DNA of 64,000 bases from Candidatus Saccharimonadota bacterium (GTDB lineage Bacteria > Patescibacteriota > Saccharimonadia > Saccharimonadales > UBA4665): the NCBI GenBank assembly GCA_028286345.1, contig JAQBRT010000001.1, positions 124,001 through 188,000 of the forward strand. Direction: 5' to 3'. Below, piece by piece: positions 7,086-23,330 of this stretch. The notes below the pieces were generated by a model, which saw nothing but the letters and a program-made list of their open reading frames with translations, was not told where the DNA came from and did not search any database. Each line of letters starts with the position of its first letter. Position 1 is the first letter of the stretch. The translations under genes and the position numbers were made by a program.

Positions 7086-7502
7086 CTAGCTTGTGAGGCC
7101 GGTGCTTGCAGCAGTCGACAGGACATAGTGCACAATGAACTGTGCCAGCGCAACAATGATCAGGCCAACAATGGCGTAGACCAAGGTGTTCTTGGCGCCA
7201 GAAACGTTACCACTGTCACCACCTGAGGTGATGTACTTGAAACCACCGTAGATGATCATGATGACAGATACAATACCAACTACGACTGACAGAAGGTTAA
7301 CGATGGTTGAGGCCACGCTCTTCAGCTTGTCGTTAGGGTTGGCTGCATCACAGCTGCCGCTACCACCAGCAGCGGCAGTAACGCCAGTACATAGGTTGGT
7401 AGTAATATTGTCGGCATAGACAACGGCTGGGGCCAGGGCAGGTGCGCCCATAGTTAGTGCCATCATTGCGACGAGTACGTAGTTCTTAATTTTCTTAATC
7501 AT
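7086..7502 (-). CDS. VirB2/TrbC-like pilin-type membrane protein 1
   Basis: The 138-residue protein has a signal peptide (about 5-30), a short extracellular loop with two cysteines, then two membrane helices (about 64-88 and 108-130). Between them is a polar turn, GGFKYITSGGDSGNVSGAKN, the motif shared by all six neighbours. This topology matches VirB2/TrbC pilins of type IV secretion systems. It is last in the leftward array but has its own TTGAAG-N17-TATAAG promoter and an AAAGG ribosome site, so it may be the most abundant subunit. The pilin role is inferred. Confidence 0.75.
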   Translation of the reverse strand: MIKKIKNYVLVAMMALTMGAPALAPAVVYADNITTNLCTGVTAAAGGSGSCDAANPNDKLKSVASTIVNLLSVVVGIVSVIMIIYGGFKYITSGGDSGNVSGAKNTLVYAIVGLIIVALAQFIVHYVLSTAASTGLTS

Positions 7503-7533
7503 TATTGTTTGCCTTTCTTTAGCTTCTTTTTAA

Positions 7534-7562
7534 CTTATAGCATATTTGGTAGTGTGCTTCAA
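7534..7562 (-). promoter_or_regulatory. Internal promoter for the last pilin-like gene
   Basis: On the minus strand TTGAAG (7557-7562) and TATAAG (7534-7539) are 17 bases apart, with a 31-base segment to the ATG at 7502 that contains AAAGG. It would allow separate, higher expression of the last gene of the array. Confidence 0.72.
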
Positions 7563-7564
7563 TC

Positions 7565-7951
7565 TTACTTAGCGGCGCTCAGGGCAAAGTGTACGATTGC
7601 TTGGGCCAGGGCAGCAATGAATAAACCGACAATTGCGTAGAGCAACGTATTCTTGGCTGAGGTTACATTACTCGGGTCGCCACTTGCAAGTATATACTTG
7701 AGGCCACTGATAATCACCATTATAACGGCCACAATACCAACAATGTAGCTCAGAATAGTTACGACCGACTTAACTAAGGAGTTAATGCCACCATTACTGT
7801 TAGGACCACAGGTCTGGGCACTGTTGAGTTGCTGCAAGCCTGAGCAAGCATCGCCTTTAAGGTCTGCAAATGCAGGGGTTAGGGTAGTGGCACCAAGCAG
7901 CGCAGTAAAGCTGAGTGCCAGAGTTATAACTGCAAGTTTAAATTTCGACAT
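7565..7951 (-). CDS. VirB2/TrbC-like pilin-type membrane protein 2
   Basis: The 128-residue protein has a signal peptide (about 5-29), a two-cysteine loop, and two helices flanking GLKYILASGDPSNVTSAKN. It is the closest relative in the array to protein 1: the turn and the following LLYAIVGLFIAALAQAIVHF helix match it at most positions. It starts nine bases after the stop of protein 3 with an AAGGA ribosome site, so it is in the same transcript. It is presumably an alternative or co-assembling pilin subunit. Confidence 0.75.
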   Translation of the reverse strand: MSKFKLAVITLALSFTALLGATTLTPAFADLKGDACSGLQQLNSAQTCGPNSNGGINSLVKSVVTILSYIVGIVAVIMVIISGLKYILASGDPSNVTSAKNTLLYAIVGLFIAALAQAIVHFALSAAK

Positions 7952-7960
7952 AGTAAATCC

Positions 7961-8359
7961 TTATTTGCCTAGGTTATTAATAACAAAGATGACTATAGCT
8001 TGGGCCACAACAGCAACCACAACGCCCACGATGCAGTAAACTATGCTGCTGCGTGCGTTGGCAATGGCACTGCTATCCCCGCTCGAGAGCATCATCCGCA
8101 GGCCGGCAACAATCAGGCCAATAACAGCGGCAGCCCCGACAACATAAGACAGGATATTGATGATTGAGCCGATCAAACTGACAATTGGGTTCTGGCTTGA
8201 TTTGCTCTGAGTATTGACGGCCTGACAAACATCTGTCTGCCCCAGTGCACCGGATGAACAGCCTGGCGTCACATTAACCGCATATGCCGGCACTGTCGCA
8301 ACTACAGTTGCCGACAGGGTAGAGAACATGACCAGTAGCGAAAGGATAAATCTTTTCAT
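7961..8359 (-). CDS. VirB2/TrbC-like pilin-type membrane protein 3
   Basis: The 132-residue protein has a signal peptide (about 4-27), a loop with two cysteines, and two helices around GLRMMLSSGDSSAIANARS. The ATG lies two bases after the stop of protein 4, so translation is probably coupled. The second helix ends VIFVINNLGK. It is the same family as its neighbours but more diverged from proteins 1 and 2. A structural role in the envelope-spanning machine is inferred from the locus. Confidence 0.72.
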   Translation of the reverse strand: MKRFILSLLVMFSTLSATVVATVPAYAVNVTPGCSSGALGQTDVCQAVNTQSKSSQNPIVSLIGSIINILSYVVGAAAVIGLIVAGLRMMLSSGDSSAIANARSSIVYCIVGVVVAVVAQAIVIFVINNLGK

Positions 8360-8361
8360 AT

Positions 8362-8679
8362 TTATAGTTTACCTATAGTGAAGCCAACAATGATCTCTGC
8401 ACTTAATGATATAACCAAGCCAACGGCGGCATAAATAATCGTTTTCCGTGCTTTGGCAACTTCTTGCGGGTTACCTTGAGCAGTTATAAAGCGCAGGCCA
8501 GCTATAACAATCATCAACACAGCGGCAGCGGCAAAGCTGGCAAGCACGATTGTCAGAATCCGCTGCAACTGGCCACCGCTGGCGGCTACAACCGGCAGGC
8601 CGGGGCTACAGCCAGCGGTGCCATCACCGCAGTTAACCAGGCCTTGTGCAGCAAGAAGTTGAAGCACATGCGCAACCAT
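8362..8679 (-). CDS. VirB2/TrbC-like pilin-type membrane protein 4
   Basis: At 105 residues this is the shortest member. It lacks a recognisable long signal peptide and starts with about 35 residues containing two cysteines, then has two helices around GLRFITAQGNPQEVAKARK. The start codon shares its A with the TAA stop of protein 5, so translation must be coupled. The different N-terminus suggests it is a membrane component rather than a processed pilin; that distinction is inference. Confidence 0.7.
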   Translation of the reverse strand: MVAHVLQLLAAQGLVNCGDGTAGCSPGLPVVAASGGQLQRILTIVLASFAAAAVLMIVIAGLRFITAQGNPQEVAKARKTIIYAAVGLVISLSAEIIVGFTIGKL

Positions 8680-9044
8680 TACTTAATACTCCCGGCAATG
8701 AAGCTAACAAGCACACTGGCAAAGATAGAGATTGCTAGGCCGGCAAGTGCATTAATAATTGTCATACGTGCCTTATTGGTTTTATCTGGCTCGCCCTGGC
8801 TCGTCAGGTAGTTAAACCCACCGTAGATGACAGCAATGACTGCAATGAGCGCGCCAACGCGTAGCATGATTTCGATAATTGCAGCTACGACCAACCAAAC
8901 GTCATTAAGGCCAGTGAAAGCCGGGGTGCAGATACCGTTGGAGCCAGGAACGCTATCAAGGTATTGATACCAGTGCGGAAACGCAAAAAAGCTACCGCCG
9001 CCCGTACAAGCATCTGCAATCAGCGAAAGAGGCAACTGGATCAC
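8679..9044 (-). CDS. VirB2/TrbC-like pilin-type membrane protein 5
   Basis: The 121-residue protein starts with GTG, overlapping the TGA of protein 6 by four bases. The N-terminus is atypical, with two cysteines and an aromatic FFAFPHWYQYLD stretch and no classic signal. Helices then surround the family turn GGFNYLTSQGEPDKTNKARM. It shares the family fold but is diverged. The four-base overlap shows tight translational coupling within the array. Confidence 0.7.
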   Translation of the reverse strand: MIQLPLSLIADACTGGGSFFAFPHWYQYLDSVPGSNGICTPAFTGLNDVWLVVAAIIEIMLRVGALIAVIAVIYGGFNYLTSQGEPDKTNKARMTIINALAGLAISIFASVLVSFIAGSIK

Positions 9045-9445
9045 TTGAGTATCCCCGCTGGCAGAATGTAATTAAGGAAAGCAAAACCAAAAATATAGAT
9101 AAGCAGGGCTATAACGCTACTTTGGATACGGTTAATTGCCGCTGCCGTTGCCTGTGGATCCCCACGGGAAGCAGAATACTGGATACCTGCAAAGACAATT
9201 GACCCAATAACAATTAGCCCAACCCCAGCGCTCAAGAAGCGAAGAATGCCAAATGAAGCATCGAGAATAGGGTTTCCTTTGCCACGGCAACCGATATCAA
9301 TGCTTGGAGTATATACCTGGTCCGTATTCTTAGGGTCACCGCAGGGTGTCACCGCCGAAGCCACAGCAGGGGTAACCGAGAAAACAAACACCACAAATAG
9401 TGCCAGGACCATACTAAAACGTTTCATTTTTTGTATACGGTTCAT
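9041..9445 (-). CDS. VirB2/TrbC-like pilin-type membrane protein 6 (first gene)
   Basis: The 134-residue protein is first in the leftward operon. It has a signal peptide (about 8-31), two cysteines in the extracellular loop, and two helices around GIQYSASRGDPQATAAAIN. It is the most diverged in the second helix. A near-consensus promoter (TTGCAC-N17-TATAGT) ends eight bases before the ATG, and there is no ribosome site, so the mRNA should be leaderless. It faces away from the secretion operon that starts at 9510. Confidence 0.72.
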   Translation of the reverse strand: MNRIQKMKRFSMVLALFVVFVFSVTPAVASAVTPCGDPKNTDQVYTPSIDIGCRGKGNPILDASFGILRFLSAGVGLIVIGSIVFAGIQYSASRGDPQATAAAINRIQSSVIALLIYIFGFAFLNYILPAGILK

Positions 9446-9482: not shown

Positions 9483-9509
9483 TTGTGAAGATTGCGCCAT
9501 AATATGGTC

Positions 9510-9920
9510 ATGCGCAAAAAGCTTATGGTGGTTTTTTTGAGTTTTCTCGCAATAATTTTCGGGATCATACTCATCCAATTATTTATTAATCATTCACATA
9601 ATAATGCCGCCAAGTCTGTTAGCGGGCAGTTTGTGAGCGATGTATTAAACGGTGACAGCAAGGATTCATACGCCCTATTCAGCTCCCAAGCGCAACAGGG
9701 GACAGCTACCGGTGACTGGGCCGACACTGTGACAACCCTAGGTAACTTTTTTGCGGGTCGTAATGCATCTTATGCTTCGATGAGCAGCGACAAAGCCTCC
9801 AAAACCAAAACTGTCCTTTACAAAATCCCAGGTAACGATGGCAACTACATATTAAAGGTACTCCTTACTAGCCAAAGCAATACCTGGTATGTGGAGTCAT
9901 TTAGTAGTACGCGGCAATAA
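9510..9920 (+). CDS. Small membrane-anchored protein, secretion locus
   Basis: The 136-residue protein has an N-terminal membrane helix (about 5-25) and an extracellular domain of about 105 residues resembling small NTF2-like or DUF4878-type folds (a VSGQFVSDVLNGDSKDSYAL helix, strands ending NTWYVESF). That resemblance is tentative. I chose the ATG at 9510 because a CATAAT -10 (9498-9503) ends six bases before it and there is no ribosome site; the ATG at 9504 would abut the -10. It leads the rightward secretion operon. Confidence 0.65.
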   Translation: MRKKLMVVFLSFLAIIFGIILIQLFINHSHNNAAKSVSGQFVSDVLNGDSKDSYALFSSQAQQGTATGDWADTVTTLGNFFAGRNASYASMSSDKASKTKTVLYKIPGNDGNYILKVLLTSQSNTWYVESFSSTRQ

Positions 9921-9991: not shown

Positions 9992-12900
9992 GTGATAATA
10001 AAAAATAAGTTGCGGCAAATTTCTAATGCTGGCCTTGCGGTCAGTTTTTTGGCGTTTAGCCTCCTTAGCACTTTGACTTTATTGCTGCCACATGCCAGCG
10101 CGGTGACCACCAGCTCTATATCAACTGTTTACGGTGACCCGGCAATCAAATGTGCACCTTCGATAACTGCGCTTGGTGGTTTTCCCTATTCGATACCTGT
10201 ATTTAAGGCCGCTGGGCAATCAAATGTGCCAAGTGAATTAAGTCGTTTAGCTGCCGGTTCTGTGAGCGGTGTAGGCAACACGGCAGCATCAAAAGCCGTC
10301 TTTAAAGACCTCTCTGATCTTAAAGCCATCCCTATGATCACCTTTAAAGCCGCTAATGGTGCCACAAATAATAATGATCTCTGTGCGGGTTCATTAGTTT
10401 TCTTCCGCCAGCTTGAAGCAAGTGATCAAAATACCTTTTATGGAATCTGGAGCTGTCCAGCGGCCTTTAATAACACGCCGCTATGTGCAAGGGCAGGCGG
10501 GGGTGTGCCTACTTACCGCGTGGTTACGGGAACGGTTGACCCAAAGGCTAAAACACTGACTTTTGGTTTACCCGATGGCACAAGTGGGACTGTATTGCTC
10601 GCACAAACAGATAACGCGCTTACCAATCCGAATATTTTTACCCAAGGAAGTACTACTGGTGCAGGCAATGCGGGAGGCGGAGTTGACCTGGCAACATGTA
10701 TCGTTGCAAACTCTCATAGCGGCATTCAAAAGCCTTGCCTTGACCCTCGTTCGAATGCTAGTTTTACTGACTGGGGTCATATTTCATACGATGGTAATGT
10801 TTATGTCGCCGGCCAGTGGGGTGGCGGTGATCATATGTATTACACGCTTGTGGCAACAAGCAAGAATGCCAAGCTAGCATCCCTGTCACCACGATTTGAC
10901 ATTAATACGCATGCGGATCAAACGGACTTTAACATAGACGATGCCAAAGACCCTCAGCAGCTTTCTCAGCTTAAAGATGCACTAAATCGAACCGGCGGTA
11001 AGAGACAAACAATCGATATCACCTTTCAGGCTGATGGCACCTCAGGCAATGTGACTACTAATATGAGCGGCGTACATGCTGTAGCAGATTACTATCCCGA
11101 TAGTAAGGATGCGAGTAAGGATTACATCGAGCTAGTCTTTACTAGTGCGGGTGGGAACGAAAGCCACTTTCTTGGAAAGTACACACGAGCAGACGATAAG
11201 AGCACTACTTTCACCCTTGCGGGTGCGGGTTATAGCGGTTGTGGCACAACGCTTCAGCCCCGCTTTGTCTTAGGTTCAAACCCCCGAACCAAGGGAGCAA
11301 TCGCACCAGCAAATTGGTCTTTGCAGGCTAACTCAACACCGTGTCAGGAGCTGGCAATTCCGGTTACGGTACATGTTCAGGCAATGGATGCCGTACCGCC
11401 AACAGCACCAACAAAATCCGTAAATACAGATAACGCAGCAAGCGGTCCATCTTGTGAAGCCCACGGTACCAACCTGTCATGGATTTTGTGCCCAATTATC
11501 GATATTGCATCGCATGCAATTCAGTCTATTTACAACAATATGATCCAGCCATTGCTCGTAACCAAAGCTATTGATATCACTAATAACCCAGCCGATCCTA
11601 CGCACACGTTCCAGATTTGGTCTAACTTTAGGCTTATTGGTGACATCTTCTTGGTTGCTGCGTTAATTATTGTTGTATATGCGCAGTCAATCGGTGGAGG
11701 GATGCTAGACGCTTATACTGCTAAAAAAATGCTGCCACGTTTGTTGATTGCCGGCATACTCATCAATACATCGATCTATCTAGTGGCATTAGCTGTAGAT
11801 ATTAGTAACGTGGTAGGCAATGGCATTGCAGCGCTCTTGGAGGCACCGTTTAAATCTACCCCGGGCGGATTTAAGATACAGCTGTCTGGTCTAGGTTCTG
11901 ATGTGGGTATGGGTGCAATTATTGCGGGTGGTGTTTACGCCTGGTTTGCCGGCGCTGCTCTAATCGAATTCATGCTTGTATTTATGTTAGTGCCAGGGTT
12001 CTTAATTTTTATCGCCATCTTGGCAACTGTAGTGCTCAGGCGAGGGTTAATTCTATTGCTTATTGTCTTGGCGCCAGTTGCATTTGCACTGTATTGCCTG
12101 CCAAACACCGAAAAATACTTCAGACAATGGTGGGATACGCTCTTTAAAACACTCCTGGTATACCCGATTATTGCGGTACTTTTCGCTCTCGGCAACATCA
12201 TGTCCGTGACAATTAATCTTGCTGTCAAATCGGGTGATGGTGGCGCATCGGCAGCCGTTGCAGACCTACTTTCCATTGCCGCTCTTTTTGTTCCATTGTT
12301 CTTGATACCATTTAGTTTTAAGCTGGCTGGCGGTATCTTGGGCCGTGCGCATGATGCCCTTCAGACTGCCGGTAAGCGTGGCAGCGAGTTCTGGAAAGGC
12401 AACCAGAACGATCCTTTCAGCCGACGTAATCAAGCACGTTACAAGTTAGGTGATCGTAACACCCTGATGCGCGAGCGAGCCGTAGATCGTGGCTCTGCCG
12501 AGGGTGCCGGTATTGGTAGGCGCACAATTGGGCGTGCAGCTAACTGGGGAAACCTGCAAGCGAAGCGCTCTATGTACAACAAGCAGCGTTCCGAAATGCT
12601 TCAAGGCCAAATCAACACTGGTGATGATAGCAACATCCGTGACCTATTTATTGCCTGGGATTCCACTGGCGGTAAAGATGGTAGCGGTGCTTGGTACCGG
12701 CGCATGGACATGGAAAATGGTCATAGAGTCGCTGGAGCCAGTGCCGTCTATGAGGGGACAAACGCTCGCCAGCGTGGTCAGATCGCCAAGAACAAATCCA
12801 TGAGCCTCTACAAGGGTGATAAGTCTGCTGTTCAGGATGCCTTGTACTATGAATGGAAAAAGACTAGCTTTGAGCCATCGCAAATGGGCCGCATTGGCCA

Positions 12901-13477
12901 TCAATATGGTGAAATATTAGCTGAGCACGGATTTAATGAGGGCGAAGGCGCCGGCATGATGAAAGGCGTTACCTTTAGACACCAAGGCCAGTCGTTGGCC
13001 GGCAAGCACTCAACCTACAAGAAGCAAGACGACGGTAGTTGGGGTTGGAAAACCGACCACATGTCTCTTACTAAAGAGGGAAGCCTCAACATTGGTACCT
13101 ATGGTTGGAGCAACCAGGACGTCTCCACTTTCGATGAACTATCTTCAGGGTATAACGGCATGAGCCAAGTGCTTGGTGCAGAGGGCATCGAATCCAAAGC
13201 TGGATTTGGTGACCAAACCGTTATTAGAGACACCGGAACCGAGTACGATGGCAAAACTCGCGACCAAGTTGCCAATGCCCGCAAGCAGCTGATTGCTATG
13301 GCCGAAACGCTTAACCCATCCCGAGGTTCGAGTGCTCAGGGTAGGGTCGATACTGTGGGCGAAGATGGCCCTCAAATCACTGGCATGGGTGGCGTCAGTG
13401 GTGCCCCAGTACGTGTTCAGGAAGCCGCCCGCAACTTCCACAGAACAGTATTTGGTGGAACTGATGGTGATGGTTAG
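9992..13477 (+). CDS. VirB6/TrbL-like secretion channel protein with large extra domains
   Basis: The 1161-residue protein starts at GTG with a signal peptide (about 8-38). An extracellular domain of about 500 residues containing several cysteines follows. About six membrane helices (roughly 545-790) include the RRGLILLLIVLAPVAFALYC segment typical of VirB6/TrbL-like polytopic proteins, then a polar cytoplasmic tail of about 370 residues rich in Gly, Arg and Lys. VirB6 forms the inner-membrane channel of type IV systems. Family members usually have about 300-450 residues, so the outer domain and tail are lineage-specific additions. Position before PrgI and VirB4 supports the call. Confidence 0.82.
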   Translation: MIIKNKLRQISNAGLAVSFLAFSLLSTLTLLLPHASAVTTSSISTVYGDPAIKCAPSITALGGFPYSIPVFKAAGQSNVPSELSRLAAGSVSGVGNTAASKAVFKDLSDLKAIPMITFKAANGATNNNDLCAGSLVFFRQLEASDQNTFYGIWSCPAAFNNTPLCARAGGGVPTYRVVTGTVDPKAKTLTFGLPDGTSGTVLLAQTDNALTNPNIFTQGSTTGAGNAGGGVDLATCIVANSHSGIQKPCLDPRSNASFTDWGHISYDGNVYVAGQWGGGDHMYYTLVATSKNAKLASLSPRFDINTHADQTDFNIDDAKDPQQLSQLKDALNRTGGKRQTIDITFQADGTSGNVTTNMSGVHAVADYYPDSKDASKDYIELVFTSAGGNESHFLGKYTRADDKSTTFTLAGAGYSGCGTTLQPRFVLGSNPRTKGAIAPANWSLQANSTPCQELAIPVTVHVQAMDAVPPTAPTKSVNTDNAASGPSCEAHGTNLSWILCPIIDIASHAIQSIYNNMIQPLLVTKAIDITNNPADPTHTFQIWSNFRLIGDIFLVAALIIVVYAQSIGGGMLDAYTAKKMLPRLLIAGILINTSIYLVALAVDISNVVGNGIAALLEAPFKSTPGGFKIQLSGLGSDVGMGAIIAGGVYAWFAGAALIEFMLVFMLVPGFLIFIAILATVVLRRGLILLLIVLAPVAFALYCLPNTEKYFRQWWDTLFKTLLVYPIIAVLFALGNIMSVTINLAVKSGDGGASAAVADLLSIAALFVPLFLIPFSFKLAGGILGRAHDALQTAGKRGSEFWKGNQNDPFSRRNQARYKLGDRNTLMRERAVDRGSAEGAGIGRRTIGRAANWGNLQAKRSMYNKQRSEMLQGQINTGDDSNIRDLFIAWDSTGGKDGSGAWYRRMDMENGHRVAGASAVYEGTNARQRGQIAKNKSMSLYKGDKSAVQDALYYEWKKTSFEPSQMGRIGHQYGEILAEHGFNEGEGAGMMKGVTFRHQGQSLAGKHSTYKKQDDGSWGWKTDHMSLTKEGSLNIGTYGWSNQDVSTFDELSSGYNGMSQVLGAEGIESKAGFGDQTVIRDTGTEYDGKTRDQVANARKQLIAMAETLNPSRGSSAQGRVDTVGEDGPQITGMGGVSGAPVRVQEAARNFHRTVFGGTDGDG

Positions 13478-13488
13478 AGGGCTAATAC

Positions 13489-14544
13489 GTGGCAACATAT
13501 AAAGTAATCCAAGACATCGAAGCAGAGGACAAGCTCCTTGGCCCGTTGACCCTGCGCCAGTTTATCTATGGCTTGGTGAGCGCTTTCTTCCTGTACATCT
13601 GTTTTATTGTGGTCACCAGGGGTGCACCGGTGCTGCTGATCGCATTCTTCCCGCCAGCTGCCTTTTGTGGCTTCTTTGCGTTTCCGTTCATGCAAGACCA
13701 GCCAACTGAAGTGTGGGCACTGGCTAAGATCCGCTTTTTGTTTATGCCGCGCCGCCGTATCTGGAACCAGAGCGGGGTAAAGCAGCTGGTTACTATAACT
13801 GTGCCAAAGAAGATTGAACGGGTCCTGACCGACGGGCTGTCACAAAATGAAGTACGCAGCCGGCTCTCGGCACTAGCCAACACGCTGGATAGCCGCGGAT
13901 GGGCCGTCAAAAATGTTAACGTTAACTTATATAACCAGATGGCCATCACGTCGGCTACGGTTTCGTCTGACCGCTTGATCGATATGAACAGCATCCCACA
14001 GCAAGTCCCGAGCTACGACATCCAGGCTGCTGATGACATCCTTGATGAGCACAACAACCCGGTTGCCCAACAGTTTGAGCAAATGATCAATGCTTCGGCC
14101 CAGGCTCACCGCCAACAGCTCATAAATACACTCAATAGCCCGGCCGTACCAACACCGGTACAAACCACAACCGACAAGCCGGCCGACTATTGGTTTATGC
14201 AGCAGCCTGGTAGTGCCGCAGCTGGGCCGGTTATGCCAATGGCAATGCCCGTAGCCCAAGATGAAACACCAGAAGAAGAATCATTGATTGCCCAGATTAA
14301 AAGCCATCGCGACGAACAGGACAGCGTCATGAACTCGCACCTGCGCACACTCCAACCGATTGACGAACAGGCCGCAAACGCGCCAAAACCAGCCCCAACG
14401 CCTAGCCCAGTAACCCCTGACCCTGCTATACTATCGTTAGCAAATAACAACGACCTAAACGTGGCGACATTGGCACGTGAAGCCAATAAGTCAAAGGGTT
14501 CAGACGAACCGGGCAATGGGGAAGTTGTCGTTTCACTCCGCTAA
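13489..14544 (+). CDS. PrgI family type IV secretion protein
   Basis: The 351-residue protein starts at GTG with TAGAGGG upstream. The first 110 residues match PrgI: a short N-terminal strand region (DIEAEDKLLGPLTLRQF), two membrane helices (about 26-45 and 47-66), then the FPFMQDQPTEVWALAKIRF and MPRRRIWN segments. PrgI is known from Gram-positive conjugation systems as a membrane partner of the VirB4 ATPase. The remaining 240 residues are soluble, Pro- and Gln-rich and probably disordered. The position 11 bases after the VirB6-like gene and before the VirB4 pair is the usual PrgI context. Confidence 0.88.
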   Translation: MATYKVIQDIEAEDKLLGPLTLRQFIYGLVSAFFLYICFIVVTRGAPVLLIAFFPPAAFCGFFAFPFMQDQPTEVWALAKIRFLFMPRRRIWNQSGVKQLVTITVPKKIERVLTDGLSQNEVRSRLSALANTLDSRGWAVKNVNVNLYNQMAITSATVSSDRLIDMNSIPQQVPSYDIQAADDILDEHNNPVAQQFEQMINASAQAHRQQLINTLNSPAVPTPVQTTTDKPADYWFMQQPGSAAAGPVMPMAMPVAQDETPEEESLIAQIKSHRDEQDSVMNSHLRTLQPIDEQAANAPKPAPTPSPVTPDPAILSLANNNDLNVATLAREANKSKGSDEPGNGEVVVSLR

Positions 14545-14582: not shown

Positions 14583-15620
14583 ATGAATCCGGCAGATGCC
14601 AACAACCAAACGCCAGCTCCAGAGCAAGCTGTGCCGACTCCAAACGCCGTCTCACCAGCCGGCGGATTTCCTATACCAACCCAAAACCAGACCATTGCAC
14701 CCCAATTTGTTCCTCAAGCACAACCGCAAGTAGTTGCGCCCATCCCCCTGCCACCGCCACCAGCCCAGCCTGTAGTTGCGCAGCCAGCACCAGTCTATGC
14801 AGCGCCACCACAACAACCTCAGCCACAACCGCAAGCCCAAGTCCGGACTTCTCCAGTGCCTGGCCCCCAACAGCAGCCTGTAGCGCCAAGGGCTAAGCCT
14901 AACAGCACCCAGAACACGCTCCAGATTGCCGAGATCCGCGACGGCATCGTCATTATGAGCGACGGCTCGTACCGCTCGGTTATTATGGCTAAAAGCATTA
15001 ACTTTGACCTCATGAGCTCACAGGAGCAAGAGGCGGTTGAGTACAGCTACCAAGGATTCTTAAACTCGCTGTATTTCCCGGTACAAATCTTCGTGCGCTC
15101 CAGCAAAGTCGACCTTGGCCCGTACATCGATAAGCTCGATAAAATCCGCACCGAGCATGACAACATGCTCCTAGCACTACTGATGGACGACTACATTACC
15201 TATATCGATAACCTGTCTTCACAGACCAATATTATGGACAAGCGGTTCTACCTAGTCATTCCATACTTTCCGGTTGCCGACGTTCAAAAGGCCCTAACCC
15301 AGAGTAAGAACTTCTTTAGTGGCATCACAGCACTAATTAACCCTAAAGAAGCCCACGTGGTTATTAACGAAGCCGACCTTGAGAGCGCCAAAACCGAGCT
15401 GCGTAACCGGGTGCAGTCAGTAATGAGCGGCCTGCTGCAGTGTGGCATCCAGGGCCTGCCACTAGACACCCAGGAGCTAATCGAACTCTACTACGACGCC
15501 TACAACCCAGACACAGCCACCCGCCAGCAGCTCAAGAACTTTGACGAACTATCGGCCGATATTATTACTAAAGGGCAGGGCGTTGCCTCACAAGCCCACC
15601 TTCAGCGGGAGCTACAGTAA
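14583..15620 (+). CDS. VirB4/TraC N-terminal domain protein (split VirB4)
   Basis: The 345-residue protein has an extremely Pro/Gln/Ala-rich N-terminal 105 residues. A folded domain follows (about 115-335) resembling the N-terminal, non-ATPase part of TraC/VirB4 proteins: EIRDGIVIMSDGSYRSVI, a helix with EAVEYSYQGFLNSL, then KRFYLVIPYFP. There is no Walker motif. Its stop overlaps the ATG of the VirB4 ATPase by one base, so the two are made together and presumably form one functional VirB4. A GGGTGAG ribosome site precedes the ATG. Confidence 0.82.
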   Translation: MNPADANNQTPAPEQAVPTPNAVSPAGGFPIPTQNQTIAPQFVPQAQPQVVAPIPLPPPPAQPVVAQPAPVYAAPPQQPQPQPQAQVRTSPVPGPQQQPVAPRAKPNSTQNTLQIAEIRDGIVIMSDGSYRSVIMAKSINFDLMSSQEQEAVEYSYQGFLNSLYFPVQIFVRSSKVDLGPYIDKLDKIRTEHDNMLLALLMDDYITYIDNLSSQTNIMDKRFYLVIPYFPVADVQKALTQSKNFFSGITALINPKEAHVVINEADLESAKTELRNRVQSVMSGLLQCGIQGLPLDTQELIELYYDAYNPDTATRQQLKNFDELSADIITKGQGVASQAHLQRELQ

Positions 15621-17536
15621 TGGCCAAGAAACAACAGCTTGACCCGGTTGCACTGGCCCAAGCGCAGCGCGCCCGCGAAGAGCAAGAAGTTAACACCGCT
15701 TTCCAGAAAGGTATCACCGCCCTTCGTGACTTTATTGCGCCAAGTTCCATTGAGTTCCAAGCTTCGCACTTCCAAATTGGTACTCGCTACGCCCGCAGCT
15801 ACTATGTCTATGGCTATCCGCGCCAAATCTACACCGGTTGGCTCAGCAGTATGGTTAACATCGACGAAGTTGTTGACCTCAGCATGTACATCTATCCGGT
15901 CGAGAGCCAAGTAGTACTAGAAAACTTGCGCAAAAAGGTAACCCAAATTGAGGCCGGCCTACAGATTGACAGCGAAAAGGGCAGGGTCCGCGACCCAGCC
16001 AAACAAGCCGCCATCCTCGACGCCGAAGAAATGCGCGACAAGCTGCAGGTCGGCGAAGAGCGTTTCTTCCGTTTTGGCTTATACTTTACGATCTACGCCG
16101 GCTCGCTCGATGAACTCGAGTTTGTCAGCCACAAAGTCGAATCAATGCTTGGCCAGCAGCTAATTTACTCCAAGCCAGCCACCAGCCAGCAAGAGCAGGG
16201 GCTTAACAGCACCATCCCTCAGCTGACCGACCAGCTCGAGATCCGCCGTAACATGAGCACCGGCGCCCTTAGTACCAGCTTCCCATTCACCAGCGCCGAG
16301 CTGTCACAGGATAATGGCATTTTGTACGGCATCAACATGCACAACTCCGGCCTGGTTATTTTTGACCGCTTCTCGCTCGAGAACGGCAACTCAGTAGTCT
16401 TTGCCAAGTCTGGTGCTGGTAAGTCGTTTACCGTTAAGCTCGAAGCATTACGTAGCATGATGTTTGGCACCGAGATCTTCATTGTCGACCCAGAAAACGA
16501 ATACCAACGTATGTGTGAAGCCGTTGGCGGTGCATACGTCCGCTTGAGCCTCAACTCTGCAACCCGTATTAACCCTTTCGACCTACCTAAAGTCGTTGAT
16601 AGCGAAGAGGCCGACAATGCCCTGCGCTCCAACCTAATTACCCTGCATGGCCTGCTCCGCCTCATGATGGGCGGCGCCCAGGCACAGATGACCGGCGGTG
16701 GTGCAGCCCTGGCACCAGCCCTGGCACCAAGCGAAGAGGCCGACCTTGATGCTGCACTTATCGAAACCTATGCCAAAGCTGGCATAACCAACGACCCGCT
16801 AACGCACACCAGTATTCCGCCAACTATTGCTGATTTGTACGACACGCTACTGCACATGGGCGGCACCGGTCCGCAGTTGGCCCAGCGCCTGCGCAAGTAC
16901 ACCACCGGTACTTTTGCCGGCATCTTTAGCCAGCAAAGCAACATCAACATCAACAACCCAATGGTCGTATTTAATATCCGCGACCTAGAGGACGAACTGC
17001 GCCCAGTTGCCATGTACATTGTCCTAAATTACATCTGGAACAAGACTAAAGCCGACCAGAAACGCCGAATCCTAGTTGTTGATGAAGCCTGGCAGCTTAT
17101 GAAGTACGAGGACTCGGCCAACTTCTTGTTTAGCCTTGCCAAGCGCGCCCGTAAGTATAATTTGGGCATTACCACCATCACCCAAGACGTCGAAGACTTT
17201 ATGGGCTCCCGCATGGGCAGGGCGATTGTTGCCAATGCTTCAATGCAAATCCTACTCAAGCAATCCTCCAGCGCCGTTGACGTTTTGAGCGATGTCTTTA
17301 AGCTCACTAGCGAAGAGAAGAAACGCCTCAGCCAGTTTCCGGTTGGGCAGGGCTTGTTCTTTGCTGGCCAAAACCACGTCCACATCCAAATCGCCGCCAG
17401 TCCAACCGAAACCGGCCTAATTACTACCAACCCAGAGCAAGTTCAACAGATGAATGACGCTGCAGCTCAAGGCGATTTTAGCCAGCCAGCCGGCACCATC
17501 GACTTGAACAACCGCCTCTATCCCGGCAGTGTATAA
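15620..17536 (+). CDS. virB4: VirB4-like secretion ATPase
   Basis: The 638-residue protein carries the VirB4/TraC ATPase core: Walker A KSGAGKS at 263-269, the following EIFIVDPENEY strand, Walker B RRILVVDEAW (D488-E489), and the GITTITQDVEDFM sensor region. VirB4 powers assembly and substrate transfer at the inner membrane. The N-terminal 250 residues retain the FRFGLYFTIYAGSLDELEF part of the TraC-like domain, while another portion is in the preceding gene. Translation is coupled through a one-base stop/start overlap. Confidence 0.94.
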   Translation: MAKKQQLDPVALAQAQRAREEQEVNTAFQKGITALRDFIAPSSIEFQASHFQIGTRYARSYYVYGYPRQIYTGWLSSMVNIDEVVDLSMYIYPVESQVVLENLRKKVTQIEAGLQIDSEKGRVRDPAKQAAILDAEEMRDKLQVGEERFFRFGLYFTIYAGSLDELEFVSHKVESMLGQQLIYSKPATSQQEQGLNSTIPQLTDQLEIRRNMSTGALSTSFPFTSAELSQDNGILYGINMHNSGLVIFDRFSLENGNSVVFAKSGAGKSFTVKLEALRSMMFGTEIFIVDPENEYQRMCEAVGGAYVRLSLNSATRINPFDLPKVVDSEEADNALRSNLITLHGLLRLMMGGAQAQMTGGGAALAPALAPSEEADLDAALIETYAKAGITNDPLTHTSIPPTIADLYDTLLHMGGTGPQLAQRLRKYTTGTFAGIFSQQSNININNPMVVFNIRDLEDELRPVAMYIVLNYIWNKTKADQKRRILVVDEAWQLMKYEDSANFLFSLAKRARKYNLGITTITQDVEDFMGSRMGRAIVANASMQILLKQSSSAVDVLSDVFKLTSEEKKRLSQFPVGQGLFFAGQNHVHIQIAASPTETGLITTNPEQVQQMNDAAAQGDFSQPAGTIDLNNRLYPGSV

Positions 17537-17552: not shown

Positions 17553-20525
17553 ATGACAACAGAAACCCTAGAAAAACCGGACACTGATGGGGGTAGCGAC
17601 GCTGTTAACCCCGGTGAACAACACCAGGCTGACCTAGTCAGTGGCTCCAAGCGTGGCGCGACTGGTGGTAGCGAAGGCGCAGGCCAAGCTGCTGAAAGTG
17701 GTGGTGTTGCCGGCGTAGCCGCTGGCCTCAGTGACACATTAAATAAGGGTTATACCGGCCCTATGGGTCTTGCCGGGCCAGCTGGCATGGGCGTGGGTAT
17801 AGCTTCGCGATTGATTGGCCTGCGTAACCGTAAAGGCGCTGCAGGCGGTGTTGCGGGCTTAATTATCACCGTAATGGTCATCTTGGGTGGCATTGGTGCC
17901 GGACCGCTTGAATTTGTTCACCTGTCACACCTGTTGCACGACGCCCATCTCGGGAGCCAAGAGAATGCTGGTGATAGCCGTGTGGGCAAAATCTTCCGTT
18001 TTTCGCGAACTGGCCGCCCTGGCGAGACTAGGCTTGGCCTACTAGGCAGCAAGTACCATGCAAAAATTATCAGCGACCTAGAAAGTATTGGCATCACACC
18101 AGAGTATAAAGGCGCCGACTTTTATAAGGGTATGTCTTACGACATCAATAACCCAAGCAGCCCGTACCACGGCATGACGGCGGAGGATGCAGCTGCCGCT
18201 ATTGAGCAAAAAACCGGCCTCAAGCCAACAATTAACGGCAATAAGCTCACGGTCGATGCTGATAAGTTCTGGACCCAACGCAAGTCTCTTAGTGGTGCGC
18301 TTGGTGACCTAAAGCTCAGTAAGGTGACTACTGTTATCCGAGGAAGGGTTTTAGCAAAATTTGGGCTGGTATCTTTCCACCCCATGAAAGCTGCAGACAA
18401 AGCTTTATATGAAAAAGCCACTGATCCATTCAAGAAATGGAAAGCCGCGCGTGACGACCGTATAAGAAACGGGCAGCCGGCAAACCCCGTTGACCCATCA
18501 AAGGCTACCGAGGCAAAAGAGACGGTAGATTCAAAAGGCAACAAGGTAATTACTCAGCAGCCGCTCCCTGATAATAGCCCGGCCTTTACCCCAGCTGTAG
18601 AACCAAGCCAGAGTGCCCTACAGCAAATTGCTAACAGTAAAAGCCTTAAAATTACTGGTGGCCTAGCTGCTGGGGTTGGTCTTGTCTGTCTTATTAGACA
18701 AGTCGACGACAACGTTGCCCATATTCGCTTTGTCCAAGTTATTACACCCCTGATTCGCTTAGGCGGGGAAGCTCTTGCTACGGGTGCACAAATTGAAGCC
18801 CACACCGATGAAAATATTCAGGTGATGGGCTTTATGAAACAGCTCTTAAACAGTCCGGCCACAAAAACCCAGCCAGCAAGTAACTACAACTCGGGTACCG
18901 CCTACGCTGTTTCCGCTGCTAAAGAAAGCCCTAACGGAACGACCGACATCGACAAGAACACTAAAGACATGATCACAAAGCAGAGGATCGATTCCCTTGA
19001 CTGGACACAGAAGCCAGCCATGCAAGATCTTTGCAGTACGTACGGTCAGGTTGCAGTTGGTGCTGTGAGTGTGGTTGTTAGTGTGATTAGTGGCGGCATT
19101 ATTAGTAATGTTGTTGGTTTTGTTACCCAGAGCCTGCTGCTGGGCCATGTTATTGATTTCATTAGCAATATGCTGGCAGGCAATGCCATTGACCTTGCCA
19201 AAGCCGGCGCCCAATACGGCAACTACATCGACTACGGCGTCACCCTGATGGCCAACTCTAGCTCGGTGGTATTTGGCGCTATTGGTCTTTCACCAAAACA
19301 AGCCGCCGAGGTTAACAACGCCACTTACCAGGCGCAGCAAGAGCAGTTTGCATCACGCAGCGTCTTTGACCGGATGTTTGATATCCACGATTATCATTCG
19401 TTCTCATCCCATGTTATTGATGGTGTGAATGGTAACTCTAATGTAGCGTCGATACTGACACGGTTTAGCAGCCTGGGGTCAACATTGTTCCGCCTGCCAG
19501 CAATGCTGTTTGGCGCCCAGGTACATGCTGCCCCTACGGCAACTTACGACTACGGTTTCCCGCAATATGGATTTAGTGAGGCAGACCTAAATAGCCCTCT
19601 CGTCAGTGACCCGTACGCCAACGCCGATGCAGCAGCGGCCATTCTCGATGCAGATACCTCTGGTACTTACAAAAACCGGGCGATGGAATGTTTTGGCATT
19701 AAGCTCGACAAGGCCAACGGGATGTGGGACGCGATTCCTGACCATACTGTCGATATGTACGACCCAGCGACCTATGACCCAACCAAATGTGCCAGCACCG
19801 GCGACCAAAACTGGCTGCGGATCCGCTTCTTTATCTTTGACACTGGTATCATGGCTGGCTACGCCTGTTACACCGACGGGGACCAAGAATCCTGCGCCCA
19901 GTCCGGTATTGGATCGTCTGGTAGTAGCTCGGCCGCTGGTACTGGCCAATCGAGCTCACAGCCAGTCGGCAACATTGGCGACCCATCGGCCGACGTGCTA
20001 TGCGCGCCGAATACCAAAGATCTAGGCGTGACGACAAGCGGTTATACTGGAGACCTCACGCAACAAAAAGGCACACTGCAAATCCGCTTGTGCCAGCTCT
20101 CGAGCATCACTGGTGCCGGGCAAGATACTAAGGGTAACCGCACCTCAGACGGAGCTGTTGTAAACTCCCGTGTTTCTGGGGCTTGGCAGGCACTTGGTGA
20201 GGCCGCCAAGACTAGTGGCGTAAGTTTGTCAGCCAACAGCTCTTTCCGGCTTGGTGACTCATGCGGTGGAAGTGGTAATGGCAAATCCTGCGCTACACCT
20301 GGTGGCTCAATGCACCAATTAGGAGCCGCCATCGACTTTAACCTGCCACACATTATTGATGAAAACGCTCAAACCTGTGCAGTTCGCAAGCGGGCACCAG
20401 GCGATCCAAGCTGGGACTGGCTCAACAACCATGCCGCTCAGTTTGGGTTTAAGCAATATAGCGCCGAGGCCTGGCACTGGGATAACTCACCACTGCCTAA
20501 CCGCTGTGGAGGGGACGGCAGCTAA
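17553..20525 (+). CDS. Large membrane protein with C-terminal M15 (VanY-like) peptidase domain
   Basis: The 990-residue protein has a Gly/Ser-rich N-terminus, a helix near 98-115, hydrophobic segments near 368-385 and 500-550, then a secreted portion. The last 150 residues look like a D-Ala-D-Ala carboxypeptidase of family M15: GGSMHQLGAAIDFNLP carries the SxHxxGxAxD zinc motif (about 918-927) and EAWHWD near 971 supplies the last zinc ligand. That would trim peptidoglycan stem peptides. It lies 17 bases after virB4 and one base into the next hydrolase gene, so it belongs to the secretion machine. The rest of the protein is unrecognised. Confidence 0.82.
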   Translation: MTTETLEKPDTDGGSDAVNPGEQHQADLVSGSKRGATGGSEGAGQAAESGGVAGVAAGLSDTLNKGYTGPMGLAGPAGMGVGIASRLIGLRNRKGAAGGVAGLIITVMVILGGIGAGPLEFVHLSHLLHDAHLGSQENAGDSRVGKIFRFSRTGRPGETRLGLLGSKYHAKIISDLESIGITPEYKGADFYKGMSYDINNPSSPYHGMTAEDAAAAIEQKTGLKPTINGNKLTVDADKFWTQRKSLSGALGDLKLSKVTTVIRGRVLAKFGLVSFHPMKAADKALYEKATDPFKKWKAARDDRIRNGQPANPVDPSKATEAKETVDSKGNKVITQQPLPDNSPAFTPAVEPSQSALQQIANSKSLKITGGLAAGVGLVCLIRQVDDNVAHIRFVQVITPLIRLGGEALATGAQIEAHTDENIQVMGFMKQLLNSPATKTQPASNYNSGTAYAVSAAKESPNGTTDIDKNTKDMITKQRIDSLDWTQKPAMQDLCSTYGQVAVGAVSVVVSVISGGIISNVVGFVTQSLLLGHVIDFISNMLAGNAIDLAKAGAQYGNYIDYGVTLMANSSSVVFGAIGLSPKQAAEVNNATYQAQQEQFASRSVFDRMFDIHDYHSFSSHVIDGVNGNSNVASILTRFSSLGSTLFRLPAMLFGAQVHAAPTATYDYGFPQYGFSEADLNSPLVSDPYANADAAAAILDADTSGTYKNRAMECFGIKLDKANGMWDAIPDHTVDMYDPATYDPTKCASTGDQNWLRIRFFIFDTGIMAGYACYTDGDQESCAQSGIGSSGSSSAAGTGQSSSQPVGNIGDPSADVLCAPNTKDLGVTTSGYTGDLTQQKGTLQIRLCQLSSITGAGQDTKGNRTSDGAVVNSRVSGAWQALGEAAKTSGVSLSANSSFRLGDSCGGSGNGKSCATPGGSMHQLGAAIDFNLPHIIDENAQTCAVRKRAPGDPSWDWLNNHAAQFGFKQYSAEAWHWDNSPLPNRCGGDGS

Positions 20526-21748
20526 TGAAGCAGCGATTGGTCCCGATTATCCTTAGCCTGACACTCCTGTTCTCGCAAGCCACGGTTTTTGCTACCGGCA
20601 GCCTATCTGATGACCAAAAGAAAGTCTTCCAGCAAGGAATTTGGGAGTTTGACGTCAATGATAACTCTAGTTGTAGTTCCGGAACCGGAACGTTGGTTGC
20701 TCTGGCTGGTAATGATAACGAAGAAAAGATTTACAACTTCTTTATCTCCAAAACCCTGACACCCATACAAGCTGCAGCAATTGATGGTAACTTTGGCCAG
20801 GAGTCAACCTGGAACCCAAATGATGGTGGTGGTTACCTGGCGCAGTGGGGCGGTGGTCGCTTAACCAACCTTGAGAAGTTCGCCGCAGCCGCAGGCAAGC
20901 CAGTTACTGATCTGCAAACTCAATTGGAGTTTGTTTGGCACGAATTAACGACCGAGCCAGTCTACGAAAAGGTCCTAGCTAATCTGAAGGCTGCAACGAC
21001 CATTGAGGATGCCACCAACCAGTTTATGGGTCCAGATATTCTTTCAGACGGACATAGCAGGGGTGGTGGCTATGAAAACCCAGGCAACCCAGAACTTCAA
21101 AAGCGTATTAACTATGCCAAAAGTGCCCTAGCAAAATATGGTGGCGGTGCTGCCGCTAGTGCTGGTCCAGTCCTGGCAGCCATTACCGGCGGTAGCTGCT
21201 CTGGGATCACCGGTGATGGGCAGAACACTAAGTTCATTGACGGCTTTACTTTCTTTAGCCAGTGCGACCCGTCGTGGGGCAAGAACAACTATGGCGATGC
21301 AACCATCTGTGCTGCTGGTTGTGGCCCGAGTTCTATGGCCATGATCGTTACTAACCTCACTGGCCAGGTAGTTACCCCGGCAACTATTGCTGCTTATGCC
21401 GACAGCCATAGCTTGTACTACTATGATGCCGCCGGTAATGGCCAGGGGAGTAAGTGGGAAATTGCCCCGGCAATTGCCCAACAATATAGCCTTAAGTCGG
21501 TGGCTGTTGGCGCTGACATAGCTAAGATTTCAGCTATCCTCAAGGCTGGTGGTCTGGTGGCAGCGCCAGGCGATGGCGCAGACCCATACACAACTTCGGG
21601 GCATTATATTGTCATCCGGGCCGTGACTGCTGATGGTAAATGGAAAGTTGCTGATCCATTCCATGACGATGCCAACACCAAAGAATGGGATCCGCAGCAA
21701 CTAGTCCAGCAAATGCATGGAGGTGGGGTATATGGAATCACTAAATAA
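20525..21748 (+). CDS. Secreted phage-type lysozyme plus C39-like peptidase
   Basis: The 407-residue protein has a signal peptide (about 3-23). A domain resembling the phage tail lysozyme family (about 60-200) follows, with helix IYNFFISKTLTPIQAAAIDG and the FGQESTWNP segment supplying a candidate catalytic Glu. A C-terminal C39-like cysteine peptidase domain (about 240-400) has CAAGCGPSSMAMI (catalytic Cys near 265), GHYIVIR (His near 359) and VADPF (Asp near 376). It would cut both glycan and peptide bonds in cell wall. It starts overlapping the M15 gene by one base. Confidence 0.84.
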   Translation: MKQRLVPIILSLTLLFSQATVFATGSLSDDQKKVFQQGIWEFDVNDNSSCSSGTGTLVALAGNDNEEKIYNFFISKTLTPIQAAAIDGNFGQESTWNPNDGGGYLAQWGGGRLTNLEKFAAAAGKPVTDLQTQLEFVWHELTTEPVYEKVLANLKAATTIEDATNQFMGPDILSDGHSRGGGYENPGNPELQKRINYAKSALAKYGGGAAASAGPVLAAITGGSCSGITGDGQNTKFIDGFTFFSQCDPSWGKNNYGDATICAAGCGPSSMAMIVTNLTGQVVTPATIAAYADSHSLYYYDAAGNGQGSKWEIAPAIAQQYSLKSVAVGADIAKISAILKAGGLVAAPGDGADPYTTSGHYIVIRAVTADGKWKVADPFHDDANTKEWDPQQLVQQMHGGGVYGITK

Positions 21749-22280
21749 GTTATCGGCACGATCAAAAGCCCTTATTGCTTTGGTACTATTTGTGGGTTTA
21801 ATAATTATGGTTGTTGGCTTGTCGCATTCAGGCAATAAAAATAAACCGGCCGTTGATCCTAAATCGGGGCTTTACTACGATAAAAACTCCGGTGAAACCG
21901 TCTCCAATCCAAGCGGTAAAACACCCGATACCTACGGGACTACCCCGACAGCTTTAACTTATCTGGGCTTTAGCCGCCTTCTCGACTACGGCCTCGGTAG
22001 CGACCAGCTCACAAACGTAAAGTATGCTTTTCAGGACTTTTCCACCAAACAAAACCTTAGGCTCACTGAGCTAAGCGTTGGTAAAGATTCTGTGACAGCT
22101 GGCCGGACTAGTAGTGATGATAGCTATCTGGACTTTACCGTTCTGGCCAACCGCAAAACAACTTATCTCGCCCGTATCCTTTATGCCGATGACCAGAGCA
22201 TAACCCTAACTATTAGCGACACAAACCACAAAACGGTCTACACATCCGATACTTTGGCGCCGTTTAGTGATGGCGAATAG
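21732..22280 (+). CDS. Small membrane-anchored protein ending the secretion operon
   Basis: The product is 182 residues. An N-terminal helix (about 12-32) is followed by a Lys/Pro/Gly linker and an extracellular domain of about 120 residues. I chose the ATG at 21732 over one at 21717 because GGAGG sits eight bases before it. The gene overlaps the end of the lysozyme-peptidase gene by 17 bases. The domain plan (anchor plus small domain) parallels the first gene of the operon at 9510. No family is recognised. Its stop directly abuts the recF stop on the other strand. Confidence 0.7.
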   Translation: MESLNKLSARSKALIALVLFVGLIIMVVGLSHSGNKNKPAVDPKSGLYYDKNSGETVSNPSGKTPDTYGTTPTALTYLGFSRLLDYGLGSDQLTNVKYAFQDFSTKQNLRLTELSVGKDSVTAGRTSSDDSYLDFTVLANRKTTYLARILYADDQSITLTISDTNHKTVYTSDTLAPFSDGE

Positions 22281-23330
22281 TTAGCTAAGCGCAATAATAG
22301 TACAGGTCTCGGTAAAATGTTGGACGACTACGTCAGCATCGGTTGTCGTAATAAACGTTTGGTAGTTTTTGAGGTGTTCGGTTAGGGCCTTGCGGCGAAC
22401 ACCGTCGAGCTCACTAAAAACATCGTCTAGAAGAAGCAGGGGAGTGATGCCGCGGGCTTCGGCCAGCAGTTCCAGCTCAATAACTTTGAGCGCCAATACC
22501 GTAGTGCGGGCTTCGCCGCGCGAGGCCGTTTCTGAGGCCGGGTGGCCATCAAATGTAATAACCAGGTCTTCACGGTGCGGGCCAGTGGCAGTAAAGCCCC
22601 GTTGTTGGTCGAGCTCGAGTGAATCCTGTAGTTTTTTGAGCATCCGGCTTTCGTATGAACCAGTTGGCAGCTGGCTGGCGTAAGCAATGTCAACTTCGGT
22701 CTTGGTCTGCGATAGGTTCTTATAAAGGTCCGGTAAGCGTTCGCCCATGGTATGGACAAGCTCGGCGCGCGCCCGGACAATTTGTCCGGCTAACTGGCTG
22801 AGGCGGACATCCCATGGGAAAAATTGGCTGGCCGGACTCTGTTTTTTAAGCAGGGCGTTTCGCTGCGCCAAGGTGCGTTTATAATTGCGGCGCAAAGTGC
22901 CGTACCCAGCAGCGGTTTGCTCAAGCAGGTCGTCCAAGTAACTGCGCCGGCCGTCTGGAGATCCGTGGAGCATCTGTAGGTGGTTTGGCTCGAACAGGAC
23001 TACCGGTACGGTGTTTTGTAGGCCAAGGCGCTTGTAGGCCCTTCCCTCGATCTCATAGGTCTTTGCCGGCACCGGCTCAAGCACTAGTTTTACCGTCCGT
23101 TCAATACCGCTGGCCATGTGGCTATCAAGCCTGGCCCAGGGTTCGTTAAAACTAATAAGTTCACCGTCACGAGCCCGGTACGAACCGCCGCGGCAAATAA
23201 CCAGTACCGCCTCAAGCAGGTTGGTTTTACCACTGGCGTTGGGGCCGACAATAATATTAACCCCTTCGCCAAACTCAAATGAATCGTCGGTATACGAACG
23301 GAAGTGCTGCAGGCGCAGGTCGGTAAGCAT
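22281..23330 (-). CDS. recF: DNA recombination/repair ATPase RecF
   Basis: The 349-residue protein matches RecF: an N-terminal LQHFRSY motif, Walker A GPNASGKT (about 30-37), the RRSYLDDLL segment, and a C-terminal signature and Walker B as SRGEARTTVLALK and PLLLLDDVFSELD. RecF loads RecA at gaps in replicating DNA. It follows dnaN in the conserved dnaA-dnaN-recF order. Its own TACAAT -10 ends six bases before the ATG, within the dnaN-recF gap, so it can also be transcribed as a leaderless mRNA. No gyrB follows; the secretion locus does. Confidence 0.95.
   Translation of the reverse strand: MLTDLRLQHFRSYTDDSFEFGEGVNIIVGPNASGKTNLLEAVLVICRGGSYRARDGELISFNEPWARLDSHMASGIERTVKLVLEPVPAKTYEIEGRAYKRLGLQNTVPVVLFEPNHLQMLHGSPDGRRSYLDDLLEQTAAGYGTLRRNYKRTLAQRNALLKKQSPASQFFPWDVRLSQLAGQIVRARAELVHTMGERLPDLYKNLSQTKTEVDIAYASQLPTGSYESRMLKKLQDSLELDQQRGFTATGPHREDLVITFDGHPASETASRGEARTTVLALKVIELELLAEARGITPLLLLDDVFSELDGVRRKALTEHLKNYQTFITTTDADVVVQHFTETCTIIALS

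Follow-up and report, generated by a model that had tools for sequence, protein, structure and literature searches.

Exchanged wall-hydrolase domains at fixed positions behind virB4 in the type IV secretion locus of Saccharimonadia

Results

Wall hydrolase domains behind virB4

We analysed a stretch of 64,000 nucleotides, here called the window, from the genome of a Candidatus Saccharimonadota bacterium (assembly GCA_028286345.1, 902 kb in three contigs; contig JAQBRT010000001.1, positions 124,001 to 188,000 of the forward strand). It contains a type IV secretion system (T4SS) locus in which virB4 is followed by three genes, termed P1, P2 and P3, the first two of which encode putative cell wall hydrolases (Table 1). 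A preliminary description of the window had placed a D,D-carboxypeptidase, a lysozyme and a cysteine peptidase directly after virB4. This location is borne out, as only 16 bp separate virB4 from P1, and P1 and P2 overlap as TAATG, therefore the two are probably translated jointly. The start of P3 overlaps the end of P2, and no strong break in base composition was seen in P1-P2. An origin of P1-P2 as a phage remnant was rejected, P1 having no phage match and P2 matching tail lysins at the domain level only.

Table 1. Coordinates of the T4SS locus features in the window
Feature	Position	Strand	Basis or residues
P1, 990 aa membrane protein, C-terminal M15 domain	17553..20525	+	
M15/VanY metallopeptidase domain of P1 (residues 870-980)	20160..20492	+	S919, H921, D928, E972, H975
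P2, 407 aa, predicted exported wall lysin	20525..21748	+	N-terminal hydrophobic signal-like segment
Phage-tail-type lysozyme domain of P2 (residues 64-205)	20714..21139	+	catalytic Glu93 at 20801-20803
C39-like cysteine peptidase domain of P2 (residues 241-378)	21245..21658	+	Q246, C266, H360, D377
P3, 187 aa, predicted N-terminal transmembrane (TM) helix and beta-rich ectodomain	21717..22280	+	
VirB6/TrbL-like protein	9992..13477	+	PF04610 E 8.5e-4, below cut-off; position in locus
PrgI/VirB3-like protein	13489..14544	+	PF12666 E 5e-11
VirB4 N-terminal-domain-like protein (B4N)	14583..15620	+	weak NCBIfam matches, N-terminal parts of VirB4 models
VirB4 ATPase, CD1110 family; conserved upstream flank	15620..17536	+	NF045971 above cut-off
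recF, conserved downstream flank	22281..23330	-	sequence and gene order

Residues 912-976 of P1 match Pfam VanY (PF02557) with 36.7 bits (cut-off 25). A profile built from 15 relatives matched VanY-B (5hnm, E 5e-17) as well as LdcB/DacB structures, and the AlphaFold2 (AF2) model of P1 (mean predicted local distance difference test score 73) gave an M15 fold that aligned with VanY and LdcB at a probability of 1.00. The motif is complete (S919-x-H921-x2-G-x-A-x-D928 and E972-x-W-H975), with the zinc ligands His, Asp and His and the Glu base of the M15B family all in place; across 27 domains of the class the S, first H and D are kept in 27/27, the E in 25/27 and the second H in 26/27. The nearest solved relatives include both D,D- and L,D-carboxypeptidases. 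The domain may act as either kind of carboxypeptidase or as an endopeptidase, and the M15 assignment of the preliminary description holds while its D,D label was too narrow. P1 shares the zinc ligands, Glu base and SxHxxGxAxD motif with VanY and LdcB/DacB, but its M15 domain is fused to a polytopic membrane protein of the T4SS operon, and the genome has a separate housekeeping VanY.

TM helices are predicted in P1, whose body spans about residues 90-790 and contains an invariant Cys494 and a near-invariant Cys713. Profile comparison joined the different types of P1 body into one family (98-100% probability between types), which is present in 26 of 27 sampled members of Saccharimonadia and in 0/260 other genomes of the phylum sample, pointing to a scaffold specific to Saccharimonadia. 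A reading of P1 as a second VirB6 was rejected, as profile similarity to the VirB6-like protein was absent. One genome has extra P1-like genes away from the main position (G104:C1, near 6999 and 859120).

Both domains of P2 gave Pfam matches above cut-off (Phage_lysozyme2, E 3e-25; Peptidase_C39_2, E 2e-11), confirming the combination that had been proposed for it. The lysozyme profile matches phi29 gp13 (3csq, E 1.5e-22), and the catalytic E93 is kept in 39/39 domains, so that P2 has both the homologous domain and the catalytic Glu of a gp13-type lysozyme. P2 likewise has the Gln, Cys, His and Asp catalytic set of C39-like peptidases, with Q246, C266 and H360 kept in 8/8 domains and D377 in 7/8. 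The C39 domain had no PDB match. That this domain would cut wall peptide is best argued from the relatives, which have M23, CHAP, NlpC or amidase domains in its place. C50 and C225 of P2 are near-invariant, and with only a signal-like N-terminus the protein appears to be exported and to have no TM anchor. Outside the T4SS and beside uvrC, locus L022 (1-2028; G000:C2 near 410992) encodes another C39-like protein, which has at least 675 aa and an SLT-like region and is perhaps a housekeeping autolysin.

Constant positions, changing enzymes

VirB4 was found in 148/159 genomes of the order, and the relatives of the window protein at 81-90% identity are mostly recorded in the database as Candidatus Saccharibacteria, the group to which the window genome belongs. 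We compared the window with 80 fetched neighbourhoods; one of these (L134) is the only one without P1 and P2 after virB4, has large opposite-strand genes there instead and was excluded, leaving 80 loci including the window. The order VirB6, PrgI, B4N, VirB4, P1, P2, P3, recF is kept in nearly all of them. Enzymes were labelled using Pfam together with local profiles, which were added because Pfam alone missed divergent domains.

The enzymes at these positions differ widely. The C-terminus of P1 is M15/M74-like in about 37 loci, M23 in 13, GDSL in three, and M14 and amidase in two each. For P2 we counted at least 41 architectures among the 80 genomes, with lysozyme (39), SLT (12) or glucosaminidase-like (10) domains as glycan cutters and M23 (20), C39 (8), M15 (8), amidase (9) and CHAP/NlpC domains (20, counted before an extra NlpC-like class was added) as peptide cutters. 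GDSL (13), GH3 (4), beta-lactamase-like (3) and GH43 (1) domains are added in some genomes. Wherever both kinds of cutter were recognised, the glycan cutter is N-terminal of the peptide cutter (41/41). The single GH43 domain, nearest to endo-arabinanases, precedes lysozyme and CHAP in the P2 of L120 (2635-4866, minus strand) and suggests an attack on a non-peptidoglycan polymer of the host wall. The positions are thus constant and the enzymes are exchanged between relatives. Conservation of the catalytic residues, which had been put forward as a check, is seen wherever the domains occur; the domains themselves are not conserved.

To relate the exchange to VirB4 relatedness, label changes were counted on a VirB4 tree and compared with shuffled labels. 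The counts were 18 against 16.6 for the P2 glycan class, 31 against 28.5 for the P2 peptide class, 33 against 39.1 for the P1 class and 28 against 27.6 for the P1 body type (oral type left out), all of them approximate because the tree is a quick, single-gene one with many weak branches. Enzyme swaps therefore track the VirB4 tree weakly, if at all, and are near random. Four species of one genus (L056, L057, L059 and L060) have four different P2 architectures, and two loci whose VirB4 proteins are 96% identical (L129 and L130) encode GDSL-GH3-lysozyme-M23 in one case and lysozyme-Amidase_3 followed by an NlpC-like domain in the other. Mis-binning of metagenome-assembled genomes was ruled out as the cause, since virB4 and P1-P2 share a contig in the loci and differences also occur among genomes that consist of a single contig (those behind L067, L072, L129, L122 and L127).

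Own-wall enzymes as controls

The window genome has its own MraY, FtsI, PBP1A and S11 peptidase, and its housekeeping VanY has 279 aa. FtsI was found in 39/39 tested relatives (39-65% identity) and the housekeeping VanY in 28/39 (mostly 42-61%), a large majority of these matches being near full length. In contrast, coverage reached 70% or more for P2 in 4/79 relatives and for P1 in 16/79. Median identities in close pairs were 90% for VirB4 (84% between the window and its relatives), 75% for B4N, 74% for DnaN, 61% for PrgI and 58% for RecF, against 39% for VirB6, 33% for P2 and 31% each for P1 and P3; as shuffled sequence gives 28.5% in this global pairwise comparison, the values for P1, P2 and P3 are near noise and show only very large divergence. 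Own-wall enzymes are stable and T4SS wall enzymes are exchanged, which favours, without proving it, a substrate that varies between lineages, as a host wall would.

These controls bear on an alternative, namely that P1 and P2 open only the producer's own wall for T4SS assembly, as VirB1 or PrgK would, with any hydrolase sufficing and swapping being neutral. A T4SS must cross the wall of its producer, VirB1-like enzymes beside Gram-positive virB4 act in channel assembly, and the 21/80 P1 proteins without any recognised enzyme would be expected if the activity were dispensable. We nevertheless regard this explanation as unlikely: the own-wall enzymes of the same genomes are stable, the arabinanase-like GH43, GH3 and GDSL additions are unneeded for own peptidoglycan, and around 30 swaps of catalytic class with catalytic residues intact are unexpected under neutral drift.

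P3 varies with the C-terminal enzyme of P2

In its AF2 model P3 spans the membrane once; this model matched no solved fold, and a VirB8-like assignment was rejected on this ground. Iterated P3 profiles drifted via the TM segment and were not used. Genomes alike in P2 also tend to be alike in P3, more so than their VirB4 relatedness accounts for (correlation r 0.39, p 0.003); P1 shows no meaningful correlation with P3 and only a very weak one with P2, and exchange of P1-P2-P3 as one block was accordingly rejected. The type of P3 is linked to the C-terminal class of P2 (mutual information 1.32 against 0.42 when shuffled, 0/2000 shuffles), and no link was found to the P2 glycan class (883/2000) or the P1 class (158/2000). 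One partly PEGA-like P3 type occurs with one NlpC-like P2 class in 20/20 genomes and in 0/59 others, and 10 independent contrasts on supported branches are all concordant for this pairing (p 0.002); genomes of a single P3 type supplied the seed of the NlpC-like profile, which was searched against all 80. P3 length also follows the P2 class, being 152-199 aa with C39, 214-261 with CHAP, 202-297 with NlpC-like and mostly 400-515 with M23. Judged from these gene comparisons, P3 appears matched to the C-terminal enzyme of P2. Physical adjacency of the P2 C-terminus and P3 can explain part of the covariation, yet the glycan domain a few hundred bases upstream is unlinked.

A further explanation is that phage or host-recognition exposure drives hypervariability here and that enzyme swapping is a by-product of recombinational cassette replacement between virB4 and recF. 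VirB6, P1, P2 and P3 are all variable and the cytoplasmic parts are not, the window, L057 and L080 have their types of P1, P2 and P3 in common despite the family borders between them, and in oral TM7 VirB4 has been described as conserved and VirB6 as variable (Shaiber et al., PMC7739484). We consider it somewhat unlikely, as the near independence of P1 from P2 and P3 speaks against a single block, and antigenic change alone alters loops and would not turn a lysozyme into an SLT domain or C39 into M23.

The strict pairing of P3 with the C-terminal enzyme of P2, in genes that are adjacent or overlapping, could also mean that P2 acts as a competitor-killing toxin, with P3 as its immunity protein. 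A neighbouring gene that co-varies with the enzyme is indeed found in P2-P3. Polymorphic effector-immunity pairs, such as those of T6SS wall hydrolases and of the Xanthomonas T4SS effectors, whose cognate immunity proteins are reported in PMC10933484, likewise have a C-terminal enzyme that can be exchanged and a neighbouring gene that matches it. However, P2 carries its own predicted Sec-type signal, and the surface domains seen among P3 types (PEGA-like, Ig-like and propeller-like) resemble binders more, which makes this explanation quite improbable. A predicted single-pass membrane protein such as P3 would naturally be read either as a tether that holds soluble P2 or as an inhibitor shielding the producer's own wall.

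Neighbouring genes

Upstream of the VirB6-like gene, six small genes (105-138 aa) lie in tandem on the minus strand at 7086-9445; the products of most have an N-terminus like a signal and a pair of hydrophobic helices. By eye they resemble a VirB2-like pilin array adjoining the T4SS, such as has been reported for S. epibionticum. The product of the gene at 9492-9920 (plus strand), 142 aa long with a single TM helix and a small domain, gave no significant family match and is, by eye, a candidate NTF2-type VirB8. Beyond recF, dnaN and then dnaA lie on the strand opposite to the T4SS genes.

Discussion

Hydrolases after virB4 and their requirement for epibiotic growth are already known. S. epibionticum cannot do without its T4SS (PMC10633639), its epibiotic growth reportedly requires the peptidase and lysozyme genes that follow virB4 (PMC12102498), and a MepM-like endopeptidase has been described in the T4SS operon of oral TM7 (PMC7739484). 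Locus and neighbourhood in the window are the same as in oral TM7 (Shaiber 2020) and in S. epibionticum ML1 (SEML1_0006-0019; Wang 2023, Quinonero-Coronel 2025), with dnaA nearby in some genomes. Class swapping, the P1 scaffold and the P2-P3 pairing are not described in the parts of these Saccharibacteria papers that were consulted, and in the literature searched, with subscription papers and supplements outside the search, we found no description of enzyme exchange or of the P2-P3 pairing.

The closest counterparts are the VirB1-like enzymes of MPF-FATA-related T4SS (PrgK of pCF10, TraG of pIP501, Orf14 of Tn916), which adjoin virB4 in Gram-positive systems, serve channel assembly and have several wall domains, with a glycan cutter followed by a peptide cutter. 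P1 and P2 share this arrangement of wall domains and, in nearly all 80 relatives, the position beside virB4 in the T4SS cluster. They differ in being two proteins rather than one, in the P1 scaffold that appears restricted to Saccharimonadia, in combining a gp13-type lysozyme with C39 instead of SLT or muramidase with CHAP (SLT or CHAP occurs in some relatives), in the exchange of enzyme class between relatives and in the added GDSL, GH3 and GH43 domains; known homologues are membrane-anchored according to a review, P1 has predicted TM helices, and P2, with only a signal-like N-terminus, looks exported with no anchor. PrgK combines LytM, muramidase and CHAP in one protein (PMC12857230), so that three wall domains per T4SS are not new, and their number, which had been taken to indicate a host wall, loses its force as an argument; a carboxypeptidase alone, besides, leaves a cross-linked wall closed. 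The phi29 gp13 tail lysin and tape-measure-linked lysozymes share the homologous domain, the catalytic Glu and the two-enzyme design with P2. In gp13 a lysozyme is combined with M23; P2 differs in being cellular, in lying in a T4SS operon and, in the window, in having C39 as its second enzyme.

We favour, as probable, the reading of P1, P2 and P3 as an exchangeable cassette for breaching the host wall, with a cognate P2-P3 pair, and as a variant of the T4SS VirB1 hydrolase. P1, P2 and P3 would form the outward-facing, exchangeable end of the Saccharibacteria T4SS. P1 would hold its metallopeptidase outside the cell, Sec-exported P2 would cut glycan with its lysozyme and peptide with C39, and together they would open the wall for passage of the T4SS or pilus. 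P3 would be the cognate partner of the P2 C-terminal enzyme, either tethering it to the machine or inhibiting it. With position and order kept and enzyme class swapped, it is most likely that the substrate varies from lineage to lineage, and it would mainly be the host wall. The direction towards a host wall taken in the preliminary description gains support from class exchange against a stable motor and stable own-wall enzymes and from the separate housekeeping VanY, S11, FtsI and PBP1A. For Saccharibacteria a host with a thick actinobacterial wall is plausible, and for the uncultured window genome such a wall would be a candidate target.

Several points weigh against this reading. Besides the P1 proteins without an enzyme, 23/80 P2 proteins have no recognised glycan cutter, so that the activities present vary from locus to locus. 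Carboxypeptidases of the M15 kind shorten stems and do not cut cross-links. The VirB6-like protein is variable too, and phage or recognition pressure can also cause fast change of outside proteins. Because the P2 C-terminus and P3 adjoin in the DNA, recombination could co-transfer both without any contact between the proteins. Neither the P1 body nor P3 matched a solved fold in the AF2 models.

The host-wall reading can be taken one step further, tentatively and with less confidence than would make it probable, to a host-range cassette in which P1 and P2 are interchangeable lysins fitted to host wall chemistry, P3 is the cognate tether or inhibitor, and hosts are changed via cassette exchange between virB4 and recF. 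It addresses the open question of how epibiotic Saccharibacteria cross the wall of their host and what sets their host range. As part of an essential secretion system, this fixed locus with its exchangeable enzymes provides a set of named genes, the bonds they are predicted to cut and a matched partner, and the enzyme class is expected to follow host wall chemistry. The locus would also be a source of natural multi-domain lysins.

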